Shown one piece after another: positions 726 through 35,402 of a stretch of 36,436 nt of DNA. The stretch is from Bacteroides sp. GTDB lineage: Bacteria > Bacteroidota > Bacteroidia > Bacteroidales > Muribaculaceae. The translations under genes were made by a program, and so were the position numbers. Location of the stretch: the NCBI GenBank assembly GCA_014802105.1, contig JAAVCX010000009.1, positions 1-36,436 on the forward strand. Direction: 5' to 3'. Numbering within the stretch: the first letter of the stretch is position 1; the number at the start of each line of letters is the position of its first letter. A model generated the notes under the pieces. That model saw only the letters and a list, made by a program, of their open reading frames with translations, was not told where the DNA came from and did not search any database.

Positions 726-3593
726 ATGAAAAATACTTTGCGCTACGTTTTCCTGGTTGCTTTCATGGCCTCATTCATGGCCTTGGGAGCATCGGCTCAG
801 GGCAACTGGGCCTTCTCAAATATTTCTCAGACCGACATCGACAATCTCACTGCCGACAGCTCAAACTGGGATCATGAGTTGACCGACTCCAACAACCGTT
901 TTAAGAACTCAACCAACATCTCGGCTACACCACTCCGAGCCAACGGAGCTGATCTCGAGGTCACCAAGGGGCTGATCTTCGAGGCTACGGGCGCCGATAT
1001 TGTACGTATAGATATTAAGGGCAACCGTCTGGCTATGAATAAGGCCGGTAAGATCGTGATCCCTTCGCTCAAAGCCGGTATGATAGTCACGGTGAAGTGT
1101 CAGTCATCGTCAAAGACCGAGGCCCGCGGCTTCAATGTCACCAATCTTACCCCCTTGAGCGGCTCGTTCAACTCTACCTCTCTCGATGCTCAGACCAATG
1201 TTGCCTCTGTGATTACCGACGGTGATGTGGTGCTCGCCAACACCGGCGGTATATATGTCACTTCGATCACTGTGGCCGAGGAGGGGGGAGAGATACCCTC
1301 ACTGCCTACTCCCGGAGGGGGCACTTCACTCAATCTCGGTGTCCATCAGATGAATCTGGCTCTGAAAAACGGAGACATGAAATATTTCAATATCGCCGAT
1401 ATATCCTCGGTGGTCATCGATGGTGATAAAGTCACGGTCAACGAGAAGGCCGAGGGCTCGGTTCCCGTGGTGCTCGAAAATCTGGTCGGCACCATGTCGT
1501 TCCGCAAGGCTCAAGGCGCTGAAGGCCCTGAGATCGAAAATCCTGCTGGCAAGGTGGTGATCAAGGAGGCCAAAGGCTGGCAGGAGTCGGCCTATATCAC
1601 CTGGGAGAATTTCGGCGATGCCGATGATTATAAGGTGTATGTCAAGGGTGGCCAGTTTGACGACTGGAGCGAGATCGATGCTCCTCTGGTGCGTGACTAC
1701 GGCACATACGGACGCGCCGATGTGGTCGGTCTCATGGCCGGTAGCTATTCTCTCCGCGTGGTTCCCGTCACCGGCGAGGTTGCCCACACCGAAGCGGCCA
1801 ACGAGGTCAGCGGTCTCTCCGTAGTCAACTATGACCGTTCGGGCTATGCCCATAAGGATTTCTCGGGAGGTGTCGGTGCCTATAACAACGACGGCACCCT
1901 CAAGGCCGGAGCCAAGGTGTTCTATGTCACTACCGACAATTTTGCCACCGTGACCATGGATGTAGTCAATAACAACAAGGGGGGCACAGTAGCCTGCACC
2001 GGTATCGGCGAGATCTTTGCCGCCATGCAGAAGGGCTTCAATACCACCCCGGTGGCTGTGCGCTTCATAGGCACCGTCGACGGCTCCAAGATACCGTCGT
2101 CGCAGCTTTTGACTGATCAGGGCGGACTGCTCCTCAAGGCCAACAATAATACCACCGACCTGCAGGTGACAATCGAGGGTATCGGTGACGACGCCGCTAT
2201 CACCAATTTTGGCATCGGTCTGGTCAACGGAGCCGGTGTCGAGGTGAGAAATATCGGCGTGCTTCTCGTTCCGGCCGCCAAAGACTGTATGGAGATCAAG
2301 GGCACCAATCATGTCTGGATACATAACTGCGACCTTTTCTATGCCCACAAAGGTTCGGGCGACCAGGTGAAGGGCGATGGAACCATGGACTGCAAGGACG
2401 GATGTTCCTACGCCACGTTCTCCTACAATCACTTTATCGATGCCGGCAAGTCGTTCCTCTGCGGCATGAAGAAGGAGACTGTCGACAATCTCATCTGCTA
2501 TCACCACAACTGGCTCGACCACTCCGACTCGCGCCATCCTCGCATACGCACCTCGACAGTTCATATCTGGAACAACTACTATGACGGTTGCTCCAAGTAT
2601 GGAGTGGGTGCTACGATGGGTTGCTCGGTGTTTGTCGAAGGCAACTATTTCCGCGGCACCAAGCGCCCCATGATGTCGTCGAAGCAGGGCACCGACGCCA
2701 CCGGCGACGGCACCTTCTCGGGTGAAGACGGCGGTATCATCAAGAGCTTCGGCAACGTGATGGCCGAGCGCAGCAAGAATTTCAGCTACATCACCTGGCA
2801 GGAAAACAACACCAGCTTTGACGCATACGAGGCCTCTACGCGCGATGAGCAGGTGCCCTCGTCGGTGAAGACCCTCGCCGGCGGCACTACCTACAATAAC
2901 TTTGACACCGATCCTGCACGTATATATGACTACACGCCTCTGCCTGCCTCTGAAGTGCCGGCTGTGGTGCTCGGCTATTACGGAGCGGGACGTCTCAACC
3001 ACGGCGATATAAGTTATAAGTTCAATAATGCTGTCGACGATGACGACTATGCCCGCAACGCCGAGATCGACGCTCTGCTCAACAGCTACAAGACCAAGCT
3101 CGTCGGTTTCTACAAACCGTTGCCCGGCGGCTCGGTGACAGGCCCCGGCGGAGAGGAACCCGATCCCACTCCGGGCACTGATCCCGATCCGGCTGTTCCC
3201 GAGGGCAGCGTGATCGTCAACTTCCTCGGTTCGAAGCCCTCGGTCGATTTCGTGACCGTCACCGGCAACTACTCCACCTCAAAGGGCACTGCCACATACG
3301 GCGGTGACAGCTATGGCACTTGTGTCAAGATGGAGTCGTCGACCTCTATATCGGTGTCGCTCGGTGACAAGAAATACAAGGTCACTCTCGTCTTTGCCGA
3401 CACCGAGACCGGCAGCATCAATCTCGACGGAACCAAGCTGTCGTCGACGGCTTCAACCCTCGTGATCCCCGAGGCTACCGGCACCATTAATCTCAAAAAA
3501 GACAAGGCGGTCAATCTCTTCCTTATAGTCCTCGAAGAGATCACAGCCGAAGACAATCGTCTGCCCATCGTGATCTCGCCCGAAATCAAGTGA
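726..3593 (+). CDS. Secreted multidomain pectate lyase, polysaccharide lyase family 1
   Basis: The 955-residue protein has a signal peptide (cut near GASAQ, residue 25), an N-terminal beta-rich region (about 26-185), a short NGDMKYFNIADI-type module (about 203-270), a fibronectin III-like domain (about 275-370), a right-handed parallel beta-helix PL1 domain (about 400-660), a P/D/T-rich linker (about 800-825) and a C-terminal beta domain. PL1 signatures are VWIHNCDLF, GDQVKGDG, YHHNWLDH and DSRHPR (601-606), which carries the expected catalytic arginine region, then NNYYDG. PL1 enzymes cleave alpha-1,4-polygalacturonate by Ca-dependent beta-elimination. The flanking beta domains are probably carbohydrate-binding (inference). 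It is paralogous to the lyase at 19615-21435 but much longer, and it lacks an obvious T9SS tail. It follows the mini-protein after 6 bp and ends before a strong terminator. Confidence 0.92.
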   Translation: MKNTLRYVFLVAFMASFMALGASAQGNWAFSNISQTDIDNLTADSSNWDHELTDSNNRFKNSTNISATPLRANGADLEVTKGLIFEATGADIVRIDIKGNRLAMNKAGKIVIPSLKAGMIVTVKCQSSSKTEARGFNVTNLTPLSGSFNSTSLDAQTNVASVITDGDVVLANTGGIYVTSITVAEEGGEIPSLPTPGGGTSLNLGVHQMNLALKNGDMKYFNIADISSVVIDGDKVTVNEKAEGSVPVVLENLVGTMSFRKAQGAEGPEIENPAGKVVIKEAKGWQESAYITWENFGDADDYKVYVKGGQFDDWSEIDAPLVRDYGTYGRADVVGLMAGSYSLRVVPVTGEVAHTEAANEVSGLSVVNYDRSGYAHKDFSGGVGAYNNDGTLKAGAKVFYVTTDNFATVTMDVVNNNKGGTVACTGIGEIFAAMQKGFNTTPVAVRFIGTVDGSKIPSSQLLTDQGGLLLKANNNTTDLQVTIEGIGDDAAITNFGIGLVNGAGVEVRNIGVLLVPAAKDCMEIKGTNHVWIHNCDLFYAHKGSGDQVKGDGTMDCKDGCSYATFSYNHFIDAGKSFLCGMKKETVDNLICYHHNWLDHSDSRHPRIRTSTVHIWNNYYDGCSKYGVGATMGCSVFVEGNYFRGTKRPMMSSKQGTDATGDGTFSGEDGGIIKSFGNVMAERSKNFSYITWQENNTSFDAYEASTRDEQVPSSVKTLAGGTTYNNFDTDPARIYDYTPLPASEVPAVVLGYYGAGRLNHGDISYKFNNAVDDDDYARNAEIDALLNSYKTKLVGFYKPLPGGSVTGPGGEEPDPTPGTDPDPAVPEGSVIVNFLGSKPSVDFVTVTGNYSTSKGTATYGGDSYGTCVKMESSTSISVSLGDKKYKVTLVFADTETGSINLDGTKLSSTASTLVIPEATGTINLKKDKAVNLFLIVLEEITAEDNRLPIVISPEIK

Positions 3594-15149: not shown

Positions 15150-15183
15150 AGACTGATGGCAAATGAATGGTTTTTATCTGAGC

Positions 15184-15191
15184 GCAAAATT
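15184..15191 (-). promoter_or_regulatory. -7 element (TAATTTTG) for purL
   Basis: On the minus strand this octamer is an exact TAnnTTTG match, with initiation near 15177 and a leader of about 28 nt. The same octamer on the opposite strand at 15236-15243 serves the divergent gene. No conserved -33 box or PurR-like palindrome was recognised. Confidence 0.5.
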
Positions 15192-15235
15192 AATCAAATT
15201 TCGCGACATTCTATCTATGTTAGAGATATAATGAT

Positions 15236-15243
15236 TAATTTTG
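15236..15243 (+). promoter_or_regulatory. -7 element (TAATTTTG) for the membrane regulator
   Basis: An exact TAnnTTTG match. Initiation would fall near 15250, leaving only about 10 nt before the chosen ATG at 15261. An AGGAG at 15246-15250 sits 10 bp before that ATG and supports the start, but it would lie right at the transcript 5' end. Another promoter further upstream may therefore be used. Confidence 0.35.
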
Positions 15244-15260
15244 TGAGGAGAATGACAACC

Positions 15261-18200
15261 ATGAAAAAACTTATAGTCCATATATTTGCACTTCTCGCGG
15301 TCGTGTTGTCACTGCCGGCCGAGTCGGCGGGGGCACTCCAGGGCCGGCGATATGATTTCGCGGCTACGTCTCAGGCTCTTCAGAGTCATATATCTAACGC
15401 TCAGCAGGATCCGGCCGGTTTTCTGTGGTTTGCCACCTGGAACGGCCTGGTGCGTTTCGACGGATATAATTTCCACACGTTTCATCCCGTGGCTCTCTCT
15501 GACGGCTCGATAGTGAGCAACCGCATTTATAGTCTCAGGGTAGGCTCGACGGGCAATATCTGGTGTCTGTCGTCAGACAATCATGTGTTTTACTTCGACC
15601 ACTCGGGGATGAAGTTCATCGACATCCAGGGGCTCATTCCTGAGATCTCGGGGCTTAAGACCCACACTATGGCAATGTTGCGCAACGGGTATCTATGGGT
15701 GTTGTTTCGCGACGATGCCGCCATACGCATGAGTGATGTCGATCCGCTCGCCTATCACACGTTCTATCGCGCGGGGGAAGGAATTCTGTCGGGAGCGAAG
15801 AAGATTAAAAACGTGAGCCACACCGAACTTGGCGAGGAGTGGATCATCACCGACGTAGCGGCTGTAAATGTTTCGAGCGGCAAGAGTGTCAAGGGCAATT
15901 TCCGTAATGTGGTGGCTGCCGGTGGCATGAATGTCGCCCTGACAGCTGACGGTAAGGCTGTGATACTCAATCGCAATCTCGGCAAGACGGGCGAGGAGTA
16001 TCTTTTTGACGACGATGATGTCAAGGTGACTAACTGCACTACGGTCAACGACCGCATCTTTGTGTCGTCAAACAGCGGCCTCTCGGCCCTCGATGCACGC
16101 ACCGGGGTAGTGACCTCTTTTCCGGTGGGTGGAGTGGTGAGTATGTTTCAGGATTCACGCAACCGTCTGTGGTGTTTCGGCGACAAGGGGGAGCTCTGGC
16201 TGGTAGAGTCGGGCTCGCGAGGAGATGTAGTCACCCTCTCGGGGGCGGCGCCGCGGTTGGATAAACCGCTCAAACGCCCTCAGTTGATCTTTGAGAACAA
16301 ATCGGGACGGGTGATAGTCAAGACAGTAGGCTCGTTGCTCTCGGTATATGACGAGGACACGCGCTCCCTTCAGGAAGTGAGGATGAACGGGTCTGTCACC
16401 GAAGGCCCTCTGGCTCCCGACATCAAGAAATATATGGCTGACAATGCCGGCAATCTGTGGATATTTTATGACCGTGGAGCCGATTGTCTCACTTTTACCG
16501 AAGATCATTTCAATCATCTGGCAAATCCTTCTCTACTGGAGACCAGAGCCATGATGGCCGACTCGCGTGGGCGCCTGTGGATAACCGACCGTTCCAACAC
16601 TGTGGCGGTCAAGGATGGAGGCTCGATGCTGTATCTCGACCGTAACGGCCGGTTATCGGCTGTTCCCTCGGGATTCACTTCCTCGTCGATTTATACCGTG
16701 CGTGAAGATGCCGGGGGTAATGTGTGGATGGGCACCAAAGGTGACGGGCTCTATCAGCTCTCTCCGGCCGGAGGCGACGGAAAGAGTTACGACGTGAGAC
16801 ACTACACGTGTCAGTCGGGCAATCTGACCCTGCCGAGCGATACTGTATATGACATCGTCACTCATCGTGGAGAGGTGTGGCTGGGGTCGTATGGCGGAGG
16901 TCTGAGCCGTGGAGTGAAGGATGCCGACGGCTGTTATCGGTTCAGCTATGTCAAGGGACAGCCTCAGGGCATGAAGGTGCGTGGCCTGATGGTCGACGAG
17001 CCGAGCGAGACTCTGATGGTGGCCACTACCGACGGCTTGGTGACGTTAGACATCTCGTCGGACGATCCTGAATTTTTTGTCAATCGTTTCAGTCCCGACT
17101 CCTGGGGACTGAAGGGCAACGACGTGATGGAGATTATCCGCACCGATGACCGTTACTATGTCTGTGTCTTCGGAGTCGGAGTGAGCCGCATCGACTCTGA
17201 CAATCTGTTGACCGACACTATTCATTTCGAGAACTACCCTCTGCCTATGGGGGCGGCGGCAGCCCAGATACGCACAGCCGTGTGCTCGGGCAATGATATA
17301 TGGATCATGTCGGAACGCACGGTCAGCAGGTTTTCAACACTGACGGGTATCTATGCGACCCGTTTCATAGGATCGGACACTGACCGTTATATTCTCTCGG
17401 AAGCTGACCCGGTTGTAACCGACGGCTATATCATGGCCGGCACTTCTGACGGTGTAGTCACCTTCAGGCCCTCTGACCTGATAACTGAGGGAGCGACTGC
17501 GTCACTGCCGATAGTGACGGGAGTGCAGTATCAGAATGATCTCGAGGTGTATCCGCTCAACGATTTGGCTGATCTGACGATCACTCCCGAGCAGCGCACT
17601 TTCACTCTGTTTCTCTCGCCCATGACATTTGACACTTCGCTACATGAGGGGGAGCGTCCGCAATTCCGCTACATGATGGACGACTATGACAAGGGCTGGA
17701 ACTATACTTCTGCCGTGCGACCGTCGGTCAATTACAGTAATATTTCGCCCGGCCGATACACTCTTTACATCGAGACGCTCAATCCCGATGGCAGTTGGAG
17801 CGAGGCCCGCCAGATCGATGTCAATGTCGTGGCCAGATTTACCGAGACACTGCTGTTTCGTTTCATGACGGTGTTTATAATCCTGGCGTTGCTGTTTGGC
17901 ATGACGATAGCAGCGTTCCGTTTCAAGCGTATGCGCAATGAGATACAGCAGAAGTATTCGCTGTTGATGAGTGTCGACAATATCAGCAGTTCCCTGACCC
18001 CCGACCGGCTGGTGGCCCGTCAGGCTGAGACGGGCGAGGATAAGGATCGCCGGTTTCTTGATGACTCGGCGGCTTTTATCGCGGCAAATATCGATAATCC
18101 CGATCTCGTGGTGGAGGATCTGGCGCGCAATTCCGGCATGAGCCGCACGGCCTATTATACCCGACTGAAGCAGATCACGGGTCTGACCCCTGTCGATTTC

Positions 18201-18410
18201 ATCAAGCAGATGCGTATCAAGAAAGCGCTCAAACTCCTTGAAAGCGGATCTCTCTCAGTGACTGAGGTGGCATACGGAGTAGGGTTCACCGATCCGAAGT
18301 ATTTCTCGCGCTGCTTCAAGGCTGAGATGGACATGACTCCGACTCAATATATCGAAAGCCGTCGCAATAATGCCGGGGGTGATACCTCTGAAGTTCAGGC
18401 CGACAGTTGA
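15261..18410 (+). CDS. Membrane-anchored AraC-type regulator with HTCS sensor domain but no kinase or receiver
   Basis: I start at 15261 (MKKLIVHIF) because a signal sequence begins there and AGGAG lies 10 bp upstream; the longer frame is antisense to purL. The protein has 1049 residues: signal peptide (1-25), periplasmic Reg_prop beta-propeller repeats (about 30-780, for example QDPAGFLWFATWNGLVRFDG and DAGGNVWMGTKGDGLYQLSP), a Y_Y_Y domain (about 782-860, FRYMMDDYDKGWNYT), one transmembrane helix (about 865-890), a 45-residue linker and an AraC DNA-binding domain (about 934-1040, two helix-turn-helix motifs). Hybrid two-component systems have histidine kinase, ATPase and receiver domains between helix and HTH and reach about 1350 residues; all three are absent here. 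It would signal directly across the membrane. Its ligand is unknown. The nearby PL1 gene at 19615 suggests a pectin-derived glycan (positional inference). Confidence 0.88.
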   Translation: MKKLIVHIFALLAVVLSLPAESAGALQGRRYDFAATSQALQSHISNAQQDPAGFLWFATWNGLVRFDGYNFHTFHPVALSDGSIVSNRIYSLRVGSTGNIWCLSSDNHVFYFDHSGMKFIDIQGLIPEISGLKTHTMAMLRNGYLWVLFRDDAAIRMSDVDPLAYHTFYRAGEGILSGAKKIKNVSHTELGEEWIITDVAAVNVSSGKSVKGNFRNVVAAGGMNVALTADGKAVILNRNLGKTGEEYLFDDDDVKVTNCTTVNDRIFVSSNSGLSALDARTGVVTSFPVGGVVSMFQDSRNRLWCFGDKGELWLVESGSRGDVVTLSGAAPRLDKPLKRPQLIFENKSGRVIVKTVGSLLSVYDEDTRSLQEVRMNGSVTEGPLAPDIKKYMADNAGNLWIFYDRGADCLTFTEDHFNHLANPSLLETRAMMADSRGRLWITDRSNTVAVKDGGSMLYLDRNGRLSAVPSGFTSSSIYTVREDAGGNVWMGTKGDGLYQLSPAGGDGKSYDVRHYTCQSGNLTLPSDTVYDIVTHRGEVWLGSYGGGLSRGVKDADGCYRFSYVKGQPQGMKVRGLMVDEPSETLMVATTDGLVTLDISSDDPEFFVNRFSPDSWGLKGNDVMEIIRTDDRYYVCVFGVGVSRIDSDNLLTDTIHFENYPLPMGAAAAQIRTAVCSGNDIWIMSERTVSRFSTLTGIYATRFIGSDTDRYILSEADPVVTDGYIMAGTSDGVVTFRPSDLITEGATASLPIVTGVQYQNDLEVYPLNDLADLTITPEQRTFTLFLSPMTFDTSLHEGERPQFRYMMDDYDKGWNYTSAVRPSVNYSNISPGRYTLYIETLNPDGSWSEARQIDVNVVARFTETLLFRFMTVFIILALLFGMTIAAFRFKRMRNEIQQKYSLLMSVDNISSSLTPDRLVARQAETGEDKDRRFLDDSAAFIAANIDNPDLVVEDLARNSGMSRTAYYTRLKQITGLTPVDFIKQMRIKKALKLLESGSLSVTEVAYGVGFTDPKYFSRCFKAEMDMTPTQYIESRRNNAGGDTSEVQADS

Positions 18411-18451: not shown

Positions 18452-19357
18452 TTATAATGTGTAGGAAGCCCCGGTCTGAATGAATGGGGCGGGTTTCTGG
18501 CGGCACTCGACATATCGCTCGGTGCCGGTGACGCCGTTGATGCGACACGACATTTTGAGCGAGACTCCGCCGCGGAGATAGAAGTAGAGGTTGGGAGCGA
18601 GGCGGCGGCGGTAGTTGACCATCGGGCGGAAAGAGGTCGAAGTGAACCTGCATTTGGTCGGTAGCGATTTGTCGCCGGGCTTGAAATAGAAAGACTTGAC
18701 GTTGATGTCGGCTCCGAGGTTGATCATGTCGGAGGGGGTCGGTGTATAGTCAAATCCAAATGTCGCGCCCGAGAGGTTGACACACCATTTTTCGTTGAAG
18801 ACATGACGGTACATGAAGACAGGGAAAATGGGTATCCTTGAACTGGTGTTGATCATGGCGAGCGGACCGAGGCCAAACTGAGTGGTGCGTGTGGTTTTCA
18901 GCATGATCAGACCCATCGCGATGCCTGAAACTCTGGCAAAACCGCCCTGACCCCACTCGGCGTTGACGAGACCTATGGCAAACAAGGGTTTGCCCAGGAG
19001 TGTGGATCGGAAAGTAGAGGTGAAGCCTGTCTGACCGAACACGTGTGTGCCGTTGAGCCCGATGGCATCGGGGTCGAAACCGTGGTTCAGATCTCCTGGG
19101 GTCATGGATAGTTGGGTCGAGGCATATCGGGCGTTGGCTGTGACGGTGAATTTCCTGTCCCTGAAAAATCTATAGGATACGCGTGCCGAAAAGCCGTCTT
19201 TCATTGTGCCCCAACCGTGGTCGTAGTCTACTCCTATATTGGTTTTCAACAGTGCGTTGCCACCTTCGCTGATGTTAACCACCGCCATAGACTGGGCTGA
19301 GGCTGACAGCATGGTGAGAAGAAGACATATAAGTATCAGAGCCGATTTTTTGAACAT
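18452..19357 (-). CDS. Predicted outer-membrane beta-barrel protein, DUF6268-like
   Basis: The protein has 301 residues with a signal peptide (MFKKSALILICLLLTMLSASAQ). The mature part shows alternating hydrophobic/aromatic beta strands throughout (FSARVSYRFFRDRKFTVTAN, FTSTSFRPMVNYRRRLAP, LYFYLRGGVSLKM) and ends in SYTL. This fits a 10-14-stranded barrel of the uncharacterised DUF6268 type, though I make that assignment from memory of the family pattern. It is convergent with the membrane regulator (41 bp between stops) and transcribed alone from the promoter at 19389. Function is unknown. Confidence 0.7.
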   Translation of the reverse strand: MFKKSALILICLLLTMLSASAQSMAVVNISEGGNALLKTNIGVDYDHGWGTMKDGFSARVSYRFFRDRKFTVTANARYASTQLSMTPGDLNHGFDPDAIGLNGTHVFGQTGFTSTFRSTLLGKPLFAIGLVNAEWGQGGFARVSGIAMGLIMLKTTRTTQFGLGPLAMINTSSRIPIFPVFMYRHVFNEKWCVNLSGATFGFDYTPTPSDMINLGADINVKSFYFKPGDKSLPTKCRFTSTSFRPMVNYRRRLAPNLYFYLRGGVSLKMSCRINGVTGTERYVECRQKPAPFIQTGASYTL

Positions 19358-19396: not shown

Positions 19397-19524
19397 CGAT
19401 ATTAACTCTTAGCTTTGGTAGAAGTGACCGCTAAAATAATAGTGAAATTTTCCATCATGGTAGTCAAAAGGTTCAAAAATCGACGCGGGGGAGAGGAGAC
19501 TGTAAAGACGATATATCGAAGTGA

Positions 19525-19571
19525 GAGTGTCGCCGTATCTGTGGCATATCGACACAGGTAGGGCGACACTC
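19525..19571 (-). terminator. Stem-loop after the second pectate lyase, probable terminator
   Basis: A 10-bp perfect outer stem (19525-19534 with 19562-19571) and an inner CTGTG/CACAG stem (19539-19543 with 19553-19557) lie 44 bp beyond the lyase stop codon. There is no U-run on the minus side, so termination efficiency is uncertain. Confidence 0.55.
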
Positions 19572-19614
19572 CCATTAACGTTTTGTATTGGTAACTCTCG
19601 TGTAGGAGATAGGC

Positions 19615-21435
19615 TTATCTTACAATTGTTTTTGTGACGTTGTTGCCGCGGCGGATGATGTAGAGACCCGCGGGAAGCTGATCGACAGGTGTGTCGATGA
19701 GGCGTCCGTGGAGATCATAGACTTCGGCAGTGGCATCGGTGGCGTCTTTAGCGATTTCGATTATGGCCGACATAGCGAAGCCGTTTTCACCCTGGATTGC
19801 CGAGAGGGTAGGGATGTAGGAGGTCAGTTTGTCTTTGAGCGGCTGGTTGATGTCGTGGTGCTCGTCATCGACCGAGTTGTCGAAGCTCCAGGTGATGTCG
19901 CCCCCTTCGAGACGGCCGGCTGTGGTCTTGAGTATTTCGGGAACGTCAGAGGCATTGTCGGGTGTATAGGCATACATGTCGTCGGCGGTGTCGAAATTGG
20001 TGTGGGCCCAACCGCCACGTAGACTTTTGGCAGTCTCGGGCACTTTCTCGTCGCGCGAGTCCACTACCCATGCGTCAAACTGTGTCTCATAGTCATTCTG
20101 AGTCAGGAATTGCACTTTGGGACTCTCGGCTATCACGTTTCCACAGGCTTTGTTGATTCCGCCGTCCTGGTTGGAGAAGGTGCCTTTGAGCGAGGAGTCG
20201 AAGGTGAGTTTCTCTTTGTCCCAGATGTCGGTGCCTTGACCTGCTATCATCATGGGGCGCTTGATGGCACGGAAGTAGTTGTTTTCGATCAGGGCATTTG
20301 ACTCGGAAGTGTTGCCGATACCGTAGACCGAAACGCCGTCATAATAGTTGTTGTAGATATGGGCATCGACATAATGCAGGCGCGGACAACGCGAGTCACA
20401 GTGGTCAAACCAGTTGTGATGATAGGTGATGTTGAGGTTGATGCTCTCGCCTGTAGCGCCACCGCATCCCATCACTTTGCCCGAGTCGAAGAAGTGATTG
20501 TTGGAGATTGTGATGTTGGTCGAGCGTGTCTTCATGTCTATGCTGCCGTCGCCTTTGACCTGGTCGGCGTCTTTGCCCGGCTTGCCATAGAAGAAGTCGA
20601 CGTTGTGTACCCAGATGTTTGAGTTGTCGGTGTCCATGGACACTCCGTCGTCGCCAAACAGGAGAATTGCCACGTTGCGTATCTCGATATTGTGTGCCCG
20701 TTTCAGGCATACACCGTAGCCATAGAGGGCGGCATCGTTTCCGATACCCTCGAGGGTGATGTTCTCAATCATGCGATCGGAGGTGTTGTTGCCTTGAAAG
20801 TTAAGGTAGTTACCGTCTTTGAGCGCGTCCATCTGAGTGTCGGTGACTGCTCCGATGAAGCGGATTGCAAGCGGACGTTTTTCATATCCCTTGCTGCATA
20901 GCTCGAGGATATTGCAGATACCTGTACGTGTCTCCTTATTACCTTTTTTGTCTTTGACGACATCAAAGGTTATGGCTTTGGCATTGTCGGAAGTGACGTA
21001 GAGTATCTCGGCATTGTCTTTGAGAGTTCCGTCGGCTTTATATGCTCCCGGGATTTTCCCTCCGGCAAATGCAAAACCCTCTCGGGTGTGAGCCTTGACC
21101 TCTATCCGGCTTGTCTCTGCCGACTCGAGCAGATTATCGTTCCGGTCAAGCGCGCTGATGGAGAGTGTGTAACTGCCGGCTTTGAGTCCGGGGATGTCAA
21201 CCCTGAGTCCATCCGGGTAGCGACGTATCAATTGATAGTCGACAGGCTGATCGGAGAGTCCCTCTCCTGAGTATTTTACTATGTATTTAGCGGCATTGGC
21301 TACAGGCTGCCATCGGGCGGTAGCTGTCTCGAGCCATCCGTCAGCCCGGTCGATTGTGAGAGCTGCTGTGTAGAGCGGATTTGCGGCCAGAGTGGCGATT
21401 GCTCCGAGGTGTAAGATGAGGTTGAGTTTTTTCAT
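19615..21435 (-). CDS. Secreted pectate lyase, polysaccharide lyase family 1, with T9SS-like tail
   Basis: The 606-residue protein has a signal peptide (first ~26 residues), a fibronectin III-like domain (about 28-115), a PL1 beta-helix (about 130-500) and a C-terminal sorting-type tail (about 568-606: AEVYDLHGRLIDTP, LPAGLYIIRRGNNVTKTIVR). PL1 motifs are IWVHNVDFFYG, DADQVKGDGSID, YHHNWFDHCDSRCPR (DSRCPR at 347-352, the catalytic arginine region) and HIYNNYYDG. It should cleave pectate by beta-elimination outside the cell or on its surface. It is a paralogue of the lyase at 726-3593 with the same FN3-PL1 core but without the flanking beta domains. It is transcribed alone from a full-consensus promoter at 21464-21494. 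The kinase-less sensor at 15261 is a candidate regulator by position. Confidence 0.93.
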   Translation of the reverse strand: MKKLNLILHLGAIATLAANPLYTAALTIDRADGWLETATARWQPVANAAKYIVKYSGEGLSDQPVDYQLIRRYPDGLRVDIPGLKAGSYTLSISALDRNDNLLESAETSRIEVKAHTREGFAFAGGKIPGAYKADGTLKDNAEILYVTSDNAKAITFDVVKDKKGNKETRTGICNILELCSKGYEKRPLAIRFIGAVTDTQMDALKDGNYLNFQGNNTSDRMIENITLEGIGNDAALYGYGVCLKRAHNIEIRNVAILLFGDDGVSMDTDNSNIWVHNVDFFYGKPGKDADQVKGDGSIDMKTRSTNITISNNHFFDSGKVMGCGGATGESINLNITYHHNWFDHCDSRCPRLHYVDAHIYNNYYDGVSVYGIGNTSESNALIENNYFRAIKRPMMIAGQGTDIWDKEKLTFDSSLKGTFSNQDGGINKACGNVIAESPKVQFLTQNDYETQFDAWVVDSRDEKVPETAKSLRGGWAHTNFDTADDMYAYTPDNASDVPEILKTTAGRLEGGDITWSFDNSVDDEHHDINQPLKDKLTSYIPTLSAIQGENGFAMSAIIEIAKDATDATAEVYDLHGRLIDTPVDQLPAGLYIIRRGNNVTKTIVR

Positions 21436-21463: not shown

Positions 21464-21494
21464 CAAATATACGACCTTTCGGTTGTGTCGCAAA
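21464..21494 (-). promoter_or_regulatory. Full-consensus promoter of the second pectate lyase
   Basis: Reading the minus strand, TTTG (complement of 21491-21494) is followed after exactly 19 bp by TATATTTG (complement of 21464-21471). Initiation near 21457 gives a leader of about 22 nt. Confidence 0.75.
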
Positions 21495-21593
21495 GTTATT
21501 GACTATCCTCGGTCTCAAAGTAGTATATTTCGTTAAACTTTGGTGGACTTTTGCAATCAGGCCCGATTTTGCTTACAAACTGCTTCTTGTAAA

Positions 21594-28006: not shown

Positions 28007-28044
28007 GAGGTAGTGTTGATGAGGTGAATAGGGGTATCGAGTCG

Positions 28045-28052
28045 CAAAATTA
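28045..28052 (-). promoter_or_regulatory. -7 element (TAATTTTG) for the rhomboid operon
   Basis: An exact TAnnTTTG match on the minus strand. Initiation near 28038 leaves a leader of about 32 nt before the chosen start at 28006, which supports that start over the longer frame. It faces the polygalacturonase promoter about 45 bp away. Confidence 0.55.
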
Positions 28053-28072
28053 CGAAAAATCCTTCTGATATG

Positions 28073-28104
28073 TTTCTTAATTATGTGGAAAATCTTTAAC
28101 TTTG
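28073..28104 (+). promoter_or_regulatory. Promoter of the GH28 gene
   Basis: TAACTTTG at 28097-28104 is an exact -7 match; TTTC at 28073-28076 is a near-match to the -33 TTTG with 20-bp spacing. Initiation near 28111 gives a short G-poor leader of about 43 nt. Confidence 0.6.
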
Positions 28105-28153
28105 ACCACAAGTTTCACACTTATCTCTACATTTAACACCTTATTTATATATC

Positions 28154-29572
28154 ATGAACAAGATCTTACTCTCAGCGTTGAGTCTGTGTCTGACCTCGCT
28201 CGCTGCTCTGGCCGCGCCCAAGGCTCCCGTCACTCCCGCTGTTGCCTGGGACAGTATCTATCCCTCGGTCGAGGCCCGCATAAAGGCTCCTCAGTTCCGC
28301 GACAAGGATTACCGTCTGCTCGACTACGGCAAGCGTGTCGAGACTCCCGGATTTCTCTACACCGAAATGATCAACTCTCTTATCGATCGCTGCTCCAGTG
28401 AGGGTGGCGGCCGTGTCATCATTCCTGCCGGCACCTGGTTCACCGGCCCAATCACTCTCAAGAGCAATGTCAACCTCCATCTCGAGGAGGGTGCTACCCT
28501 GCTGTTTACTTCCGATCTAAGGGAATATCCCATCGTGCTCACCCGCTGGGAGGGTATGGACTGCTACAACTACCAGCCTATGATCTATGCCTATGACCAG
28601 GAGAACATAGCCCTGACCGGTAAAGGCACTGTCGACGGCGGTGCTGAAAACGCCAACTGGTGGCGCATGTGTGGTGCAGTCAAGTATGGCTTCGAGCCTG
28701 ACAAGGGGATCATCTCCCAGCGCATAGGCCGTCCGCAGCTCATGGAGTGGAACGAGGCCGGTGTGCCCGTCGAGAAGCGTCTGATGGGCGACGGCTACGG
28801 AATGCGCGTTCAGCTCGTCAATCCTGTCAAGTGCAAGAATGTGCTCATCGAGGGTGTCACCCTCCTGCGCTCTCCTTTCTGGGTGATCCACCCCCTGCTC
28901 TGTGAAAATCTTACCGTGCGCGGCGTCCATATCCAGAACGATGGCCCCAACGGCGACGGCTGTGACCCCGAGAGCTGCAACTATGTGCTCATCGAGGATT
29001 GCTACTTCGACACCGGCGACGACTGCATAGCCATCAAGAGCGGACGCAACCGCGACGGCCGCCGCTGGAATATCCCCACCCAGAACGTCATCGTGCGCAA
29101 CTGCAAGATGAAGAACGGCCACGGCGGCGTAGTGGTAGGCTCGGAGATCTCGGGCGGCTTCCGCAACCTCTTTGTCGAGAACTGTGAGATGGATTCCCCC
29201 ATGCTCGACCGCGTCATACGCATCAAGACCAACTCCTGTCGTGGCGGCGTCATCGAGGATATCTTCGTGCGCAACGTCACCGTCGGCCAGTGTAAAGAGG
29301 CTGTGCTCAAGATCAACCTCGTCTATGAGGCCCGCGAGAAGTGTGACCGCAGCTTCCCTCCCACGGTTCAGAATGTCTTCCTCGAGAATGTCACCTGCAA
29401 GAAGAGCAAATTCGGCGTCAAGATCGAGGGCTTCGAAGATCTCTGCAACGTCCGTAATATCGAGGTCAAGGACTGCGACTTCTCGGGCGTAGAGACCGGC
29501 GGTAACTCCATCACCGGCCAGACCGAGGATGTACGCTTTATCGATCTCACTATCAACGGCAAGAAGATCTGA
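28154..29572 (+). CDS. Secreted polygalacturonase-type glycoside hydrolase, family GH28
   Basis: The protein has 472 residues with a signal peptide (MNKILLSALSLCLTSLAALA). A pectin_lyase-like right-handed beta-helix covers most of the mature chain. GH28 motifs are all present: NGDGCD (266-271, first catalytic aspartate D268), TGDDCIAIKSG (D289, D290), NGHGGVVVGSE (H323) and RIKT (356-359). It hydrolyses alpha-1,4 bonds in galacturonan by inversion, probably releasing galacturonate from oligomers. The replacement of Thr by Gly in the NTD motif suggests an exo-type or rhamnogalacturonan-active member (inference). It sits immediately upstream of susC/susD on the same strand but is separated by a strong terminator and has its own promoter. 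Confidence 0.94.
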   Translation: MNKILLSALSLCLTSLAALAAPKAPVTPAVAWDSIYPSVEARIKAPQFRDKDYRLLDYGKRVETPGFLYTEMINSLIDRCSSEGGGRVIIPAGTWFTGPITLKSNVNLHLEEGATLLFTSDLREYPIVLTRWEGMDCYNYQPMIYAYDQENIALTGKGTVDGGAENANWWRMCGAVKYGFEPDKGIISQRIGRPQLMEWNEAGVPVEKRLMGDGYGMRVQLVNPVKCKNVLIEGVTLLRSPFWVIHPLLCENLTVRGVHIQNDGPNGDGCDPESCNYVLIEDCYFDTGDDCIAIKSGRNRDGRRWNIPTQNVIVRNCKMKNGHGGVVVGSEISGGFRNLFVENCEMDSPMLDRVIRIKTNSCRGGVIEDIFVRNVTVGQCKEAVLKINLVYEAREKCDRSFPPTVQNVFLENVTCKKSKFGVKIEGFEDLCNVRNIEVKDCDFSGVETGGNSITGQTEDVRFIDLTINGKKI

Positions 29573-29603
29573 TCTCCATCTCCGTTATCTGACTTTATCA
29601 TTT

Positions 29604-29638
29604 CCGCTCTGCGCCTCTGATCAGGGGGCGCGGAGCGG
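29604..29638 (+). terminator. Intrinsic terminator after the GH28 gene
   Basis: CCGCTC (29604-29609) pairs with GAGCGG (29633-29638), a T-G wobble follows, then GCGCC (29611-29615) pairs with GGCGC (29627-29631). The 11-nt loop contains the palindrome CTGATCAG. The run ATTGATTTTTTA follows. Confidence 0.85.
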
Positions 29639-29695
29639 ATTGATTTTTTATGCTCTAAAACATGTTTTTAAAAATCGAAATTTTCAGTGCGAAAT

Positions 29696-29726
29696 TTTGT
29701 CGTTTTTATGAAAAATTGTAACTTTG
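29696..29726 (+). promoter_or_regulatory. Full-consensus promoter of susC/susD
   Basis: TTTG at 29696-29699 and TAACTTTG at 29719-29726 are separated by exactly 19 bp, a perfect match to the Bacteroidota promoter. Initiation is expected near 29733. Confidence 0.8.
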
Positions 29727-29850
29727 CATATAGTATGTATACGTGCCTGCGGACACGTCAGTTGCATACGCCTTGAATCGCACAATATTTCTAATCGTAT
29801 AACTATCTAATTACTAATTACCTAAAACACAATTAATCTCTCCCTAAACA

Positions 29851-29949
29851 ATGCTTAGACGACAACAAGACTATTTCAGAACAACACAGACAACACACAC
29901 TGCAATCCTATTGCAAACACAATCAACTACAATCAATATTATCATTTAA
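29851..29949 (+). CDS. Possible 32-codon upstream ORF in the susC leader
   Basis: ATG at 29851 opens a frame of 32 codons (beginning MLRRQQDYFRTT) closed by TAA at 29947-29949, only 9 nt before the susC ATG at 29959. No Shine-Dalgarno sequence precedes it, as for susC itself. The peptide is rich in T, Q and I and resembles no known leader peptide. Because the region is G-poor, TAG and TGA stops are unlikely by composition, so the frame may be chance. Confidence 0.2.
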   Translation: MLRRQQDYFRTTQTTHTAILLQTQSTTINIII

Positions 29950-29958
29950 CCAAATCTC

Positions 29959-32900
29959 ATGAAAGACTTCAGCTCAGCCGGCGCAAGTCGGCTCCTTTCC
30001 GGTTTTGCTCACTGGAAAGCCCTGCTCCTCATGATGGTGCTCTGTGTGGGACTTCCCCTTCACGCACAGAATATCACCGTCAACGGAGTTGTAGAAGACA
30101 GCTCCGGCGAACCCATGATCGGCGCGACAGTGCTCGTTCAGGGTTCCAAGGAAGGCGTTGCCACTGATATTGATGGCAACTTCACTCTCAAATGTTCCCC
30201 TAAGGCCAGCCTTCTTGTCAGCTACATCGGCTACAAGACCCAGACAGTCCCTGTCAATGGCCAGACTGAGCTTAAGATCACTCTTCTCGAAGACTCCGAG
30301 GCCCTCGACGAAGTGGTAGTCATCGGTTACGGCGGCACCCGTGCCCGTCGCGACCTCACCGGTTCCGTAGGTTCTGTTTCGGGCGTCAAGCTCGCCGCAG
30401 TGCCCGTGACCTCGGCTGCCGTAGCCCTTCAGGGTAAGGTTGCCGGTGTGCAGGTCACTACTGTCGACGGTCAGCCCGGTGCCGACATCAATATCCGTGT
30501 GCGTGGTGCGACGTCAGTGACCCAGGCCAACGATCCTCTCTTCATCGTCGACGGTTTCCAGGTTGACAACATCAACGACATCCCCCCGAGCGACATCCAG
30601 AGCATCGACATCCTCAAGGATGCCTCCCTCACCGCTATCTATGGTGCCAAGGGTGGTAACGGTGTTGTGATCGTGACTACCAAGAGCGCCCAGGAAGGCA
30701 AGACTCAGGTCAACTTCAACGCTCAGGGCTCGATCTCCCACATCTATAAGAAGCTCGACCTCATGAACACTCCCGAGTTCGTGGCTTATCAGTGGGACCT
30801 CGCCGCTACCCGCAGCAAGTACAACACTTCTGAGGTTAACCAGTGGCGTTACTACTTTGGTAACCCCCACGATATGGACCTCTACAACTTGGCTCCCAGT
30901 CGTGACTGGCAGGATGAGGTGATGGGCGGCAACCCCTTCTCCTACTCCACCAACCTCTCGATCGGCGGTGGTAACGACAAGACCCGCTACAACGTCTCGT
31001 TCACCCAGAGCGACGACCGTGGTATCATCATGGGCACCGGTGTGCGTCGTACCACTATCTTCACCAAGCTCTCCACCAAGATCCTCCCCAACCTGACATT
31101 CCAGTTCAACCCCAAGGTATCCTATCGTCGTGACGAGGGTGCAGGTGGCGACAACGTAGGTACAGGCGGTATCATCGATGTGCTCCGCTTCCGTCCAACA
31201 AACGGTATCCGTGACCTCGGTCTTGTTTGGGCTGAAGGCGTGGTTGACCCCACTGCCGAGGAGACCTTCACTCAGGTTAACCCCGTCAGCGATATCAATC
31301 AGAACCTCCGCAAGAAGCACACCTACACCATCACCAACCAGGCTTCTCTCGAGTATAAGCCCATCGACAAGCTCACTCTCCGTACCGAGGGAGTCTACAA
31401 CTTCTCGTTCTATGACGACAACCGTTTCTACGGTCCTCTGACCTCCACCGGTAAGAAGCACAACAACCTTCCCGTGGCTCAGATCACCAAGCGTCAGACC
31501 AACTCCTACACCTGGACCACCACCGCTTCCTACGACTGGACCATCAAGGAGAAAAACAACTTCTATGCTCTCGTAGGTTTCGAGCTCTACAACAAGCAGT
31601 ATCAGCAGACCTACATGCAGAACCGTTACTTCCCCAAGGACATCACCGCTGATCGTGCCTGGGATAACATGGGTCTCGGTACTGCCTATCAGTCCACTTC
31701 CGAGAAGTCCACAGCCGACCGCACCACTTCCTACTTTGGTCAGCTCAACTACAACTACGATCACAAGTACCTCCTCTCGGCTACATTCCGTGCCGACGGT
31801 TCTTCGCTCTTCGCTCCCGGCAACCAGTGGGGTTACTTTCCCTCTGTTTCGGGTGCTTGGGTAATCTCCGAGGAGAACTTCCTCAAGGATGTGACCTGGG
31901 TCAACGAGGTTAAGTTCCGTGCCGCTATCGGTAAGGCCGGTAACAACCGCATCGACTCTGACCAGTGGCGCTTCCTCTATTACAACAACTCGACTTCGGG
32001 TCCTGCCTATGGTGAAGCTCTTGTCGACGGCGAGCTCTGGATGGACACCGGTTCCAACCTCGTGAACCCCAACCTCAAGTGGGAGACCACTCTTACCCGC
32101 AACTTCGCCTTTGACCTCTCGTTCTTCAACAACCGTCTGCGCATCAACCCCGAGTACTACTGGAATACTACCAGCGACCTTATCTATCGTGCCGACGTGC
32201 TCTCTGTAATGGGTTATGCCAAGCAGTACCAGAACATCGGCCAGGTGACCAACCGCGGTTGGGAGCTCTCCGTCAGCGGCGACATTCTCCGCGGCAAGGA
32301 CTATGTCCTCTCTGCCAACTTCAATATCGGTGCCAACAAGATGAAGGTTGACAAGCTCACCGGTGACGAGGATTACCTCGAGATCCGTCACAGCCGCGCC
32401 AACTCTTCTGCCGGAAACAACTACCGCCTCCAGGTAGGTGGTGAGGTAGGTCTCATCTACGGTTATGTTTATGACGGTCTGTACAGCTTTGATGAGTTCA
32501 AGGCTGAGGGCTATGGCTTCACTCCCTGGGACGGCAAGATGGTCGACGACGAGGGCAATGTACGCCCCGCCACTGTTGATATGAACGGTATTTTCGACTC
32601 CAACCGTGCCGGTAACGCTACCCTTCCCGGTAAGCCCAAGTTCAAGGACCTCAACGGCGACGGCAAGATCGACGAGAATGACCGCACTGTCATTGGTCGC
32701 ACTACTCCCAAATTCCAGGGTGGTTTCGGTCTCAACGGTCAGTGGAAGAACTTTGACTTCGTAGCCAACTTCACCTACTTCCTCGACTTCGACGTTTACA
32801 ACGCCACCGCTTACTATCTTTCATCTTCGATCGGCAATACCAACGGTACTTATAATAATGTGTTCTCTAAGTACACTAACCGTTGGAACTATACTCTCGG

Positions 32901-33282
32901 AACAGAGCATACCTTCAACAACCAGCAGTTTGAGGAGGGTCGTCTCCACAAGTATTATACTACCGAGCAGAATGCCGGTCAGACCCAGTGGAACCCCGCC
33001 GACCTCCGCAAGGACTACACTATCGACAAGTTTGTTGAGGATGGCTCCTTCCTCCGTTGCTCAGATATCACTCTCGGCTACTCGCTTCCCTCCAATATTA
33101 TCAAGCATGCAGGTATGAGCAAGTGCCGTTTCTACGCTTCGGTGACCAACCCCTTCATTATCACCAGCTACTCGGGCTTCGACCCCGAGGTTGACGTTCA
33201 GAGCGGTCTCACCCCCTCCTACGACTTCAACCGTTATCCCCGCTCGCGTTCCTACGTGCTCGGCATCAACCTCTCCTTCTAA
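29959..33282 (+). CDS. SusC/RagA-family TonB-linked outer-membrane transporter
   Basis: The protein has 1107 residues: signal peptide ending PLHAQ (37), a carboxypeptidase-regulatory-like domain (about 38-115, VNGVVEDSSGEPMIGATV), the TonB box DEVVVIGYG, a plug domain (GKVAGVQVTT, VDGFQVDNINDIPPSDIQSI, IYGAKGGNGVVIVTTKS) and a 22-stranded barrel that ends in aromatic LGINLSF. SusC proteins import oligosaccharides captured by the partner SusD lid using TonB energy. It lies 35 bp upstream of susD and downstream of a GH28 gene, so the likely substrate is a pectin oligosaccharide. Codon use is strongly biased to C- or T-ending codons, consistent with high expression. No SusR or HTCS regulator adjoins it in this window. 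Confidence 0.97.
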   Translation: MKDFSSAGASRLLSGFAHWKALLLMMVLCVGLPLHAQNITVNGVVEDSSGEPMIGATVLVQGSKEGVATDIDGNFTLKCSPKASLLVSYIGYKTQTVPVNGQTELKITLLEDSEALDEVVVIGYGGTRARRDLTGSVGSVSGVKLAAVPVTSAAVALQGKVAGVQVTTVDGQPGADINIRVRGATSVTQANDPLFIVDGFQVDNINDIPPSDIQSIDILKDASLTAIYGAKGGNGVVIVTTKSAQEGKTQVNFNAQGSISHIYKKLDLMNTPEFVAYQWDLAATRSKYNTSEVNQWRYYFGNPHDMDLYNLAPSRDWQDEVMGGNPFSYSTNLSIGGGNDKTRYNVSFTQSDDRGIIMGTGVRRTTIFTKLSTKILPNLTFQFNPKVSYRRDEGAGGDNVGTGGIIDVLRFRPTNGIRDLGLVWAEGVVDPTAEETFTQVNPVSDINQNLRKKHTYTITNQASLEYKPIDKLTLRTEGVYNFSFYDDNRFYGPLTSTGKKHNNLPVAQITKRQTNSYTWTTTASYDWTIKEKNNFYALVGFELYNKQYQQTYMQNRYFPKDITADRAWDNMGLGTAYQSTSEKSTADRTTSYFGQLNYNYDHKYLLSATFRADGSSLFAPGNQWGYFPSVSGAWVISEENFLKDVTWVNEVKFRAAIGKAGNNRIDSDQWRFLYYNNSTSGPAYGEALVDGELWMDTGSNLVNPNLKWETTLTRNFAFDLSFFNNRLRINPEYYWNTTSDLIYRADVLSVMGYAKQYQNIGQVTNRGWELSVSGDILRGKDYVLSANFNIGANKMKVDKLTGDEDYLEIRHSRANSSAGNNYRLQVGGEVGLIYGYVYDGLYSFDEFKAEGYGFTPWDGKMVDDEGNVRPATVDMNGIFDSNRAGNATLPGKPKFKDLNGDGKIDENDRTVIGRTTPKFQGGFGLNGQWKNFDFVANFTYFLDFDVYNATAYYLSSSIGNTNGTYNNVFSKYTNRWNYTLGTEHTFNNQQFEEGRLHKYYTTEQNAGQTQWNPADLRKDYTIDKFVEDGSFLRCSDITLGYSLPSNIIKHAGMSKCRFYASVTNPFIITSYSGFDPEVDVQSGLTPSYDFNRYPRSRSYVLGINLSF

Positions 33283-33317
33283 TCCCCTCTGTTCATTAAT
33301 ACCAACACAGTAGAACA

Positions 33318-35402
33318 ATGAAATTACGTAATATATTCATCGCGGGACTCTCGGTGCTGGCTCTCTCGGGCTGCAACGATTATCTTGAGGTGGACGCTCC
33401 CTCGAAGAACCTTCCTCAGGACGTCTTCACCGATGCCCGCGCTATGCAGCGCGCTCTCAACGGCGTGTATGCGAGCCTGCTCACCAGCAATATGTTTGGC
33501 GACAAGCTCATCAACACCTTCGTGCGTAACTCTGACGTAGAGTATGCTACCAACTCTTCCGAGTACACTTCCACCAATAAGTATTGCCGCTTTGACTGCG
33601 ACCCTGACGGTGGTGACCTCAAGAGCACCTGGGAGGACTGCTACCATGCTATCGAGCTCTGCAACCTCTTCATCGAGGGTGCAGAGGCTTCTCCTGCCTA
33701 TACTAAGGAAAATCCAGATCCCGAAGTGGTTCAGATGCTCGGTGAGGTTAAGGCCATCCGCGGTATCATCTACCACGAGCTCATCTGGAACTGGGGTGAC
33801 GTGCCCTTCTCCTTCAACTCCTCTCAGACTACTGAGACCACCATCTATCCTATCACCGACCGTATCGAGATCCTCGACAGATGTATCAAGGATATCGCTG
33901 CTATCGCTGATGATATGAAGGATCCCGGCGAGCTCTCCGAGCGCGTTGAGCGTGTGAGCCGTCAGGCAGCCTACGGTATCATTGCCCGTCTCGCCCTCAC
34001 TGCCGGTGGCTACTATCTCGCTCCCGAGGGTAACACCTATGGCAAGATGGTTCGCGCTGACAACTATGAGGATTATCTGAAGATCTGCCGCGAGTATGCC
34101 GATAAGGTGATCCAGTCAAACGTTCACTCCCTCACCAAGGATTACTATCAGGTATTCGTTGACGAGTGCAACAATATCGTAGCTTCCAACGACGACCCCA
34201 TGTTCGAGATCCCCTTCGGCAAGGAGTCGACCGGTAATATCGGTTATATCCACGGACCCAAGATGGATCAGTATCAGGGTGCTACTCCCCATCCCTACGG
34301 AAAATCTTCGGGCGGTGCCAAGCTCAGCGCTTTCTATCGCTTCCAGTATGACGAGGAGGATGAGCGTCGCGACTTTGTCAACCAGCTTATGACCTACTCT
34401 GCCAACGACCAGGGCTATGAGGTTACTGCCAAGAGCCACTACAATGTCTATAACGGCAAATGGTCAAAGCTATGGGTAAATGGTGGTCTCGGTTCCATCA
34501 CCGAAGGTAATACCGGTATCAACTATCCTTACCTCCGTTATGCCGACGTTCTCCTCATGTTTGCCGAGGCTGACGTGAAGCTTGAGGGTACTGTCACTCC
34601 CCAGGCTGAAGAGTGTCTTGCCAAGGTGCGTGACCGCGCTTTCCGTAACACCAATCCCGCCAAGGTCTACGACTATCCCACCGATCCCGAGGGCTTCCTT
34701 AAGGCTGTCCTCAAGGAGCGTAAGTTTGAGTTTGCCGGTGAGGGTCTCCGTTGGCGTGACCTCGTGCGCAATAATCTCTACAGCGCCGAGATCTACTGGA
34801 CATTCTTCCGCTATCTCGAGAAGGCTGATCCCTCCGGCAACCTCTCTGAGGTTTCTATGCGTGACTTCGACGGTAACGATGAGGGCTATGATAACATGCC
34901 TGACATGATCTACTGCCTCACCACTACCGACAATGCTTTCTCTCAGGATTTCGTTAAGGATGGTGTTGTGTATGCTCAGAAGGGTCAGCGCATCATGCCC
35001 GACAACCAGTTCCCCAACAACGATATCAAGATCGTATGGATGCTCAATCCCTACTGCCGCTCTAATAAGATGTCGCCCACATTCAACGAATGGCAGGCTG
35101 CTTTCCCCAACATTCCCAAGGCTTCATGGGTTAAGGACAACTATCAGTATTCCTGGGATAGCGACGGTAATGTCAAGAACGAGATTCGCTACTCGCTTCG
35201 CGGTTATATCTACCTGAATGACCTCGATCAGCAGCGTCTCATCGACGGAAACGGTAACGAAATCTCCGTGCCCATGCCCGACTCGAGCGTCAGCGACGAG
35301 GAGCTTGTTAAGCAGCTTCCTGTGGTTCGTTACATCGTTCCTATTCCCCGCACTACCATTGCCCGCTCGCAGGGTAAGTATGAAAACAAATACGGTTACT
35401 AA
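33318..35402 (+). CDS. SusD/RagB-family glycan-binding lipoprotein
   Basis: The protein has 694 residues with a lipoprotein signal (LSGC, Cys19). The SusD layout is visible: N-terminal CNDYLEVDAPSKNLPQ, TPR-like helices (DCYHAIELCNLFIEGA, EVKAIRGIIYHELIWNWGDVPF), the PYLRYADVLLMFAEAD motif and ERKFEFAGEGLRWRDLVRN near the C-terminal third. It forms the surface lid on the SusC barrel and binds the glycan. It lies 35 bp after susC, so the two are co-transcribed. The length is somewhat greater than the usual 500-650 residues. Confidence 0.96.
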   Translation: MKLRNIFIAGLSVLALSGCNDYLEVDAPSKNLPQDVFTDARAMQRALNGVYASLLTSNMFGDKLINTFVRNSDVEYATNSSEYTSTNKYCRFDCDPDGGDLKSTWEDCYHAIELCNLFIEGAEASPAYTKENPDPEVVQMLGEVKAIRGIIYHELIWNWGDVPFSFNSSQTTETTIYPITDRIEILDRCIKDIAAIADDMKDPGELSERVERVSRQAAYGIIARLALTAGGYYLAPEGNTYGKMVRADNYEDYLKICREYADKVIQSNVHSLTKDYYQVFVDECNNIVASNDDPMFEIPFGKESTGNIGYIHGPKMDQYQGATPHPYGKSSGGAKLSAFYRFQYDEEDERRDFVNQLMTYSANDQGYEVTAKSHYNVYNGKWSKLWVNGGLGSITEGNTGINYPYLRYADVLLMFAEADVKLEGTVTPQAEECLAKVRDRAFRNTNPAKVYDYPTDPEGFLKAVLKERKFEFAGEGLRWRDLVRNNLYSAEIYWTFFRYLEKADPSGNLSEVSMRDFDGNDEGYDNMPDMIYCLTTTDNAFSQDFVKDGVVYAQKGQRIMPDNQFPNNDIKIVWMLNPYCRSNKMSPTFNEWQAAFPNIPKASWVKDNYQYSWDSDGNVKNEIRYSLRGYIYLNDLDQQRLIDGNGNEISVPMPDSSVSDEELVKQLPVVRYIVPIPRTTIARSQGKYENKYGY

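Follow-up and report, generated by a model that had tools for sequence, protein, structure and literature searches.

The gene at 15261..18410 (+) of the window (the whole 36,436-nucleotide stretch of Muribaculaceae DNA analysed here) encodes a 1049-residue protein, and we consider it probable that this is a functional one-component, membrane-tethered transcription regulator, with a sensor of the hybrid two-component system (HTCS) type that signals directly, without phosphorylation, and with pectin genes as its target. The short form of the protein recurs in relatives and arose more than once, as judged from unrooted trees.

Domain layout of the regulator

Pfam, hydropathy, an AlphaFold model and profiles derived from HTCSs together define a kinase-less protein in which a putative signal peptide (residues ~1-25, 15261..15335, from hydropathy and sequence) is followed by two beta-propellers (residues ~26-760, 15336..17540; Pfam Reg_prop, E 2.4e-15), a Y_Y_Y domain (residues 797-856, 17649..17828; E 1.2e-13), one transmembrane helix (residues ~864-888, 17850..17924), some 40 residues, and an AraC-type DNA-binding domain (residues 930-1036, 18048..18368; HTH_18 match 954-1031, E 2.7e-20), all on the plus strand. 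The intervening residues comprise a juxtamembrane motif (889-904, 17925..17972 (+)) and a linker (905-929, 17973..18047 (+)) that is unconserved in the alignment. Hydropathy exceeds 1.5 in two segments only, the N-terminus and the 19-residue windows with starts 856-872. The AlphaFold model, built on an alignment seven sequences deep, has a single helix at 860-901, then an irregular stretch, then the AraC helices from 925; pLDDT falls below 50 at residues 891-923, so that the linker and the juxtamembrane helix are of low confidence. The sensor (~25-860) aligns structurally with the HTCS sensors BT4663 (4a2l) and BT3049 (3v9f), which, with Pfam, places the propellers. The preliminary description had given this same layout, with the helix at about 890, the AraC domain at about 934 and 45 residues between them; the layout is confirmed and the positions are correct to within a few residues.

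The same description had held that kinase, ATPase and receiver are missing from a continuous frame, and both statements stand. No HisKA, HATPase_c or Response_reg match was found in the regulator by Pfam at E<=1, nor by profiles made from the HisKA, HATPase_c and receiver parts of 25 long relatives at E<=0.01; as a control, Pfam recovers all three domains in 25/25 of those long relatives. The frame is open throughout from 15261 to 18410, and a frameshift or a hidden diverged kinase is ruled out by this together with the two sets of searches. The frame is also open upstream, back to 14790. We favour the start at 15261, because it gives a signal-peptide-like N-terminus, because the N-termini of orthologues agree with it, and because the stretch 14790-15261 overlaps the start of purL on the opposite strand.

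Conservation of the short form

Whether the short form is conserved in orthologues had been put forward as a check, and the answer is that it is. A search of 61 genomes (its own, 26 of the same genus and 34 others) found full-length short orthologues, 38-45% identical to the regulator by alignment, in six of the 26 other same-genus genomes and in no genome outside the genus. No long orthologue was found in the 61 genomes, where sensor identity to the closest long or intermediate relatives is 25-29%. An internal deletion private to one genome is ruled out, as the six orthologues have the same short form. A wider search of the family, in which at most five candidates were scored per genome, passed E 1e-100 in 3/149 genomes, its own included, all of the same genus.

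In three orthologue pairs, all of them excluding the window copy, NG86 dN/dS values were 0.080/0.900 (L035-L036), 0.182/1.708 (L034-L035) and 0.235/0.975 (L038-L039). Synonymous changes thus exceed amino-acid changes 4- to 11-fold, the sensor too having dN below dS, and on these counts the short form is kept under purifying selection in the three pairs.

Short, intermediate and long forms among relatives

From loci that matched the regulator, the Y_Y_Y domain or the short module we extracted 78 proteins with both Y_Y_Y and AraC domains; since the loci were selected by match, the proportions of short and long forms among the 78 are not rates. A transmembrane segment lies ahead of the linker in 78/78, and thus in all 51 short proteins. 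Between the Y_Y_Y/transmembrane part and the AraC domain, 51 proteins have 32-80 residues, two have 295 and 310, and 25 have 423-471; a full relay is present in 25 of the 78.

Pfam found HTH_18 in all 51 short proteins, and Reg_prop and Y_Y_Y in 50 each. None of the three relay domains is among the best 25 of the 82 Pfam families matched in this set, a list that reaches down to families with two members, so none of them is frequent; HisKA, HATPase_c and Response_reg were absent from seven short forms at Pfam E<=10 and from four at E<=0.01. The profiles from the 25 HTCSs gave the same division, the ATPase profile matching 0/51 short, 0/2 intermediate and 25/25 long proteins. At a per-sequence E of 0.01 the histidine profile matched 1/51 (L127, 0.0032), 2/2 and 25/25, and the receiver profile 2/51 (L124, 0.0048; L142, 0.0083), 2/2 and 25/25; these few matches in short forms are little above chance level. 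An H-box pattern was present in 0/51, 2/2 and 20/25, respectively. A search at the level of the order (119 genomes) gave at least 21 full-span rows in at least 13 genomes, its own included, and one at the level of the phylum (148 genomes) gave, among the matches listed, its own genome, G179 (elsewhere in the class, 8-287) and G212 (47-283). A separate arrangement is seen at L100:2510-5896 (-), a Reg_prop/Y_Y_Y histidine kinase whose frame stops past the ATPase domain and in which an AraC domain was not found.

The two intermediates, L040 (4693-8610, -) and L042 (7206-11135, -), constitute an HTCS-like form without ATPase: they have the sensor, transmembrane segment, HisKA with its histidine, receiver with its aspartate, SHIP, DK and AraC, and are 80% identical from the transmembrane segment to the end. 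HATPase_c was found in neither, by Pfam at E<=10 or with the HTCS-derived profile. The family search over 149 genomes extended this form to a second genus (L184:1492-4329 (-), with H-box, receiver and SHIP read from the translation) and, probably, to a third, where L185 appears to be a copy cut by the contig end. In open-licence papers we found no description of HTCSs that lack the catalytic (ATPase) domain.

Repeated origin of the short form

AU tests rule out a single origin of the 51 short forms whichever tree is used: p is 6.9e-7 for AraC, 0.0065 for Y_Y_Y and 3.1e-5 for the tree of both domains joined. Branches with good support by themselves require at least four changes of form on the AraC tree; the joined tree requires only two and the Y_Y_Y tree only one, which counts against repeated origin, as do some long branches in these unrooted trees of short domains. 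On the AU tests the short form arose more than once, by loss or gain of the relay.

In the joined tree the window clade of seven, that is the regulator and its six orthologues, has support of 100/100. It lies within a 33-row clade (98/96) together with a 16-row short clade (the neighbour clade), other short forms, the two intermediates and three HTCSs; a shared origin of the window clade and the neighbour clade is compatible with the AU test (p 0.158, joined tree). The short form L129 nests among HTCSs in the AraC tree (an 11-row group, 99/87), and relay loss would therefore be the simpler reading in its case. In the same tree nine short forms with divergent AraC domains (L086, L088, L132, L134, L136 and L138-L141) make a separate deep branch (100/99), and SusC-like genes lie near four of these nine.

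Given the conservation and the repeated origin of the short form, sensors of this type appear to work without a kinase. A fuller scenario, which we offer tentatively and hold to be somewhat less probable than its negation, is that glycan sensors of the Bacteroidales shed the phosphorelay repeatedly and partly stepwise (the ATPase domain first, or the whole relay at once), and that a conserved juxtamembrane helix then took over as the dedicated mechanical device by which the sensor dimer switches the AraC pair. If this is true, sensor and output could be exchanged directly between hybrid and one-component proteins. Between two HTCSs, BT1754 and BT0366, such parts have been swapped (PMC3404733).

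Pectin genes and candidate targets

The likely target of the regulator is a pectate lyase gene (Pectate_lyase_4; 19615..21435 (-)), proposed from Pfam and gene order, which stands tail to tail with the regulator gene with one gene between them. That gene (18452..19357 (-)) encodes a 301-residue protein with a DUF6268 match below the cut-off and possibly belongs to the same unit. Between this gene and the lyase gene, at 19522-19574, lies a 22-base inverted repeat (86% complementary, 9-base loop), perhaps a minus-strand terminator. GH28, SusC-like and SusD-like genes at 28154..35402 (+), by Pfam and gene order, and a pectate lyase gene with CBM77 at 726..3593 (+), by Pfam, may be part of a wider pectin regulon. 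Elsewhere in the window, the frame at 4564-6147 (-) encodes a protein with AAA-type and DUF4435 matches, a layout that we take to be that of candidate defence genes.

Lyase homologues are found near the regulator in two of the six orthologue loci. At L037 the homologue (59% identity) is adjacent and tail to tail, with a CE8 protein encoded further out beyond three intervening genes; at L038 a Pel9A-like protein is adjacent, followed by the lyase homologue (62% identity over 390 residues) and the contig end. Pectin genes thus accompany the window clade in three of its seven loci, and seed matching found none in the fetched flanks of the other four (L034, L035, L036 and L039). In the neighbour clade, 9/16 members are near CE8-type and/or SGNH esterase genes, as matched to seeds from L045, and Pfam confirms four esterase-type proteins in three of these loci (two at L045, one each at L087 and L047). 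Three HTCSs of the 33-row clade also adjoin CE8-type genes, with Pfam confirmation for two. The neighbourhoods of the short clades and of these three HTCSs therefore point to pectin as the ligand class. The regulator probably senses pectin fragments and controls the nearby lyase at 19615; the link between the two is drawn from gene order, in the window and in the two orthologue loci.

SusC-like genes were matched by seeds in 9/50 other short loci versus 12/25 long or intermediate loci, flank lengths differing between the sets, which hints that a short form is more often dedicated to one enzyme. A GH95-type catalytic domain (Pfam) was found in the large protein beside the short form L095 and a GH95-type N-terminal match beside L089; the short forms L092 and L097 have GH95-type neighbours by weak seed match only. 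Such neighbours suggest a second substrate class for kinase-less regulators.

Words common to the lyase promoters of the window and L037 were at chance level. Upstream of the lyase, at 21488..21521 (-), the repeat search found an imperfect direct repeat, ACTTTGNGA, with 25 bases from start to start; no other was found in that region (shuffle mean 0.40), which was one of eight regions tried. With up to three mismatches it has 21 matches in its own genome against 15 for a control pattern, and the sole perfect match in the genome is its source site. We regard it as a weak lead, a candidate site for the regulator only.

Proposed signalling across the membrane

We infer a dimer, the ligand, the target, and activation rather than repression, and our best inference for what connects them is direct transmembrane signalling. 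The periplasmic sensor (two propellers and Y_Y_Y) would bind an oligosaccharide, most likely one derived from pectin; the resulting change in the sensor dimer would pass via the single transmembrane helix into the juxtamembrane helix, which would set the spacing or orientation of the two AraC domains; and the AraC pair would bind, near the membrane, to promoters of pectin genes, for example that of the lyase at 19615. The route would include no phosphorylation step.

Of the regions compared across the seven orthologues, residues 889-904, on the cytoplasmic side right next to the membrane, show the highest conservation, with ten of 16 positions invariant. Mean pairwise identity is 79% there, 68% in the AraC domain, 46% in the propellers, 44% in Y_Y_Y, 39% in the transmembrane segment and 27% in the linker (taken as the 25 residues past the motif), the region borders having been set after the alignment had been inspected. 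The segment may belong to an unbroken helix that carries the signal and holds two AraC domains in position. A regular expression for the motif, composed after the sequences were seen, matches 4/7 of the window clade, 12/16 of the neighbour clade, 0/28 other short forms, 0/2 intermediates and 3/25 HTCSs; as a general mark of short forms the motif is ruled out by the 0/28.

In HTCSs the unphosphorylated receiver is described as blocking the AraC domain through contact with an aspartate (D) in helix 6 and a lysine (K) in helix 8 (PMC11253607). With the two columns located by their 39-residue spacing, both residues are present in 20/25 HTCSs and 2/2 intermediates, and in 0/7 of the window clade, where the lysine is replaced by arginine or methionine in all seven; the window protein retains the aspartate. 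Across the short forms as a whole, 24/51 keep both residues despite the absence of a receiver, which rules out their loss as a general mark of the short form.

Regulated proteolysis, in which the ligand would trigger cleavage in or near the membrane and a freed AraC domain would reach its targets, is an unlikely alternative that the same region of the protein bears upon. Beyond the single transmembrane helix lies a linker, unconserved and of low confidence in the model, where cleavage could occur, and a rhomboid-domain protein is encoded in the same window at 26377-27261 (-), adjoining the GH28/SusC/SusD genes. However, the segment next to the membrane is the best conserved and the transmembrane segment itself is poorly conserved; and among ten scanned orthologue neighbours two peptidase-type proteins, FtsH and an S15-type hydrolase, were found, each of them next to L034, although frames of FtsH-like length (by length only) do occur near L035 and L036. 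A second frame beside the rhomboid-domain gene, at 27242-28111 (-), also adjoins the GH28/SusC/SusD genes.

Another unlikely alternative is that the regulator depends on a separate signalling protein, for example in a mixed dimer with an HTCS of like sensor. In its favour, the sensors of short forms, ATPase-less forms and some HTCSs share the 33-row clade (98/96). Against it, no HTCS was found by Y_Y_Y, HisKA and Response_reg searches of its own genome (G000), which is 77% complete, so that an HTCS or partner may have been missed. Y_Y_Y matched two proteins, the regulator and a 565-residue protein without an AraC match; HisKA matched two, in frames of 491 and 480 residues; and Response_reg gave four matches above cut-off in frames of 255-517 residues and one weak match in a 1049-residue frame on another contig. 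In 18/26 other same-genus genomes there is at least one Y_Y_Y frame of at least 1280 residues. No HTCS partner is therefore evident in this 77%-complete genome, which may encode no other regulator with this type of sensor, and we judge such cross-talk marginally less likely even than proteolysis.

That the protein is a decaying or constitutively active HTCS remnant, as might be supposed because loss of the receiver should remove the described inhibitory clamp on the AraC domain (PMC11253607), is very improbable given the open frame, the six orthologues of the same form, and values of dN that are much lower than dS in the three pairs compared, also over the sensor.

Comparison with known systems

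The regulator has in common with the HTCSs of the Bacteroidales an N-terminal signal segment, Reg_prop, Y_Y_Y, a single transmembrane segment and a C-terminal AraC domain, but differs in being without HisKA (and its phospho-acceptor histidine), HATPase_c and receiver; it is not an HTCS, because these three defining domains were tested for and are absent. Membrane-bound AraC regulators linked to pectin genes also occur in Bacillus (the YesS type), with a sensor and topology that probably differ from those of the regulator described here. A sensor fold like that of our protein is also present in BT4673, of which the extracellular part only has been solved; its entry 3ott is titled a ‘putative one component system’, and the title of 3va6 calls the same protein a hybrid two-component system.

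SusR is described as a membrane protein that senses in the periplasm, binds DNA in the cytoplasm and needs no kinase to activate glycan genes, its DNA-binding domain being reported as unlike those of other known regulators (PMC3878776); on that published description, the standard AraC domain sets the present regulator apart from SusR-like ones. By its predicted anatomy the regulator is a transmembrane transcription regulator, a single protein that combines a DNA-binding domain with one or more transmembrane regions, as that class is defined (PMC10269533). The class is established and rich in Bacteroidota, with Y_Y_Y reported in 7.7% of members (PMC10269533). The main text of that survey has 0 occurrences of the word AraC, and it does not appear to treat the Reg_prop/Y_Y_Y/AraC architecture, its repeated origin or the juxtamembrane motif (PMC10269533). 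In open-licence papers generally, we found no description of the kinase-less Reg_prop/Y_Y_Y/AraC form.

How membrane-bound regulators act on DNA is described as still poorly understood (PMC10269533), and HTCSs are thought to need the receiver clamp to silence their tethered AraC domains (PMC11253607). A conserved family, found in nature, that shares this sensor and output but has no relay puts directly the question of what the relay is for, and such a regulator could also be a small building block for switches that respond to sugars in gut bacteria. The kind of protein is already known, as a transmembrane transcription regulator, and ours is a variant of it built from HTCS parts; what the present analysis adds is that forms with and without the relay have replaced one another more than once, that a juxtamembrane motif is conserved, and that the ATPase-less HTCSs make another reduced form.
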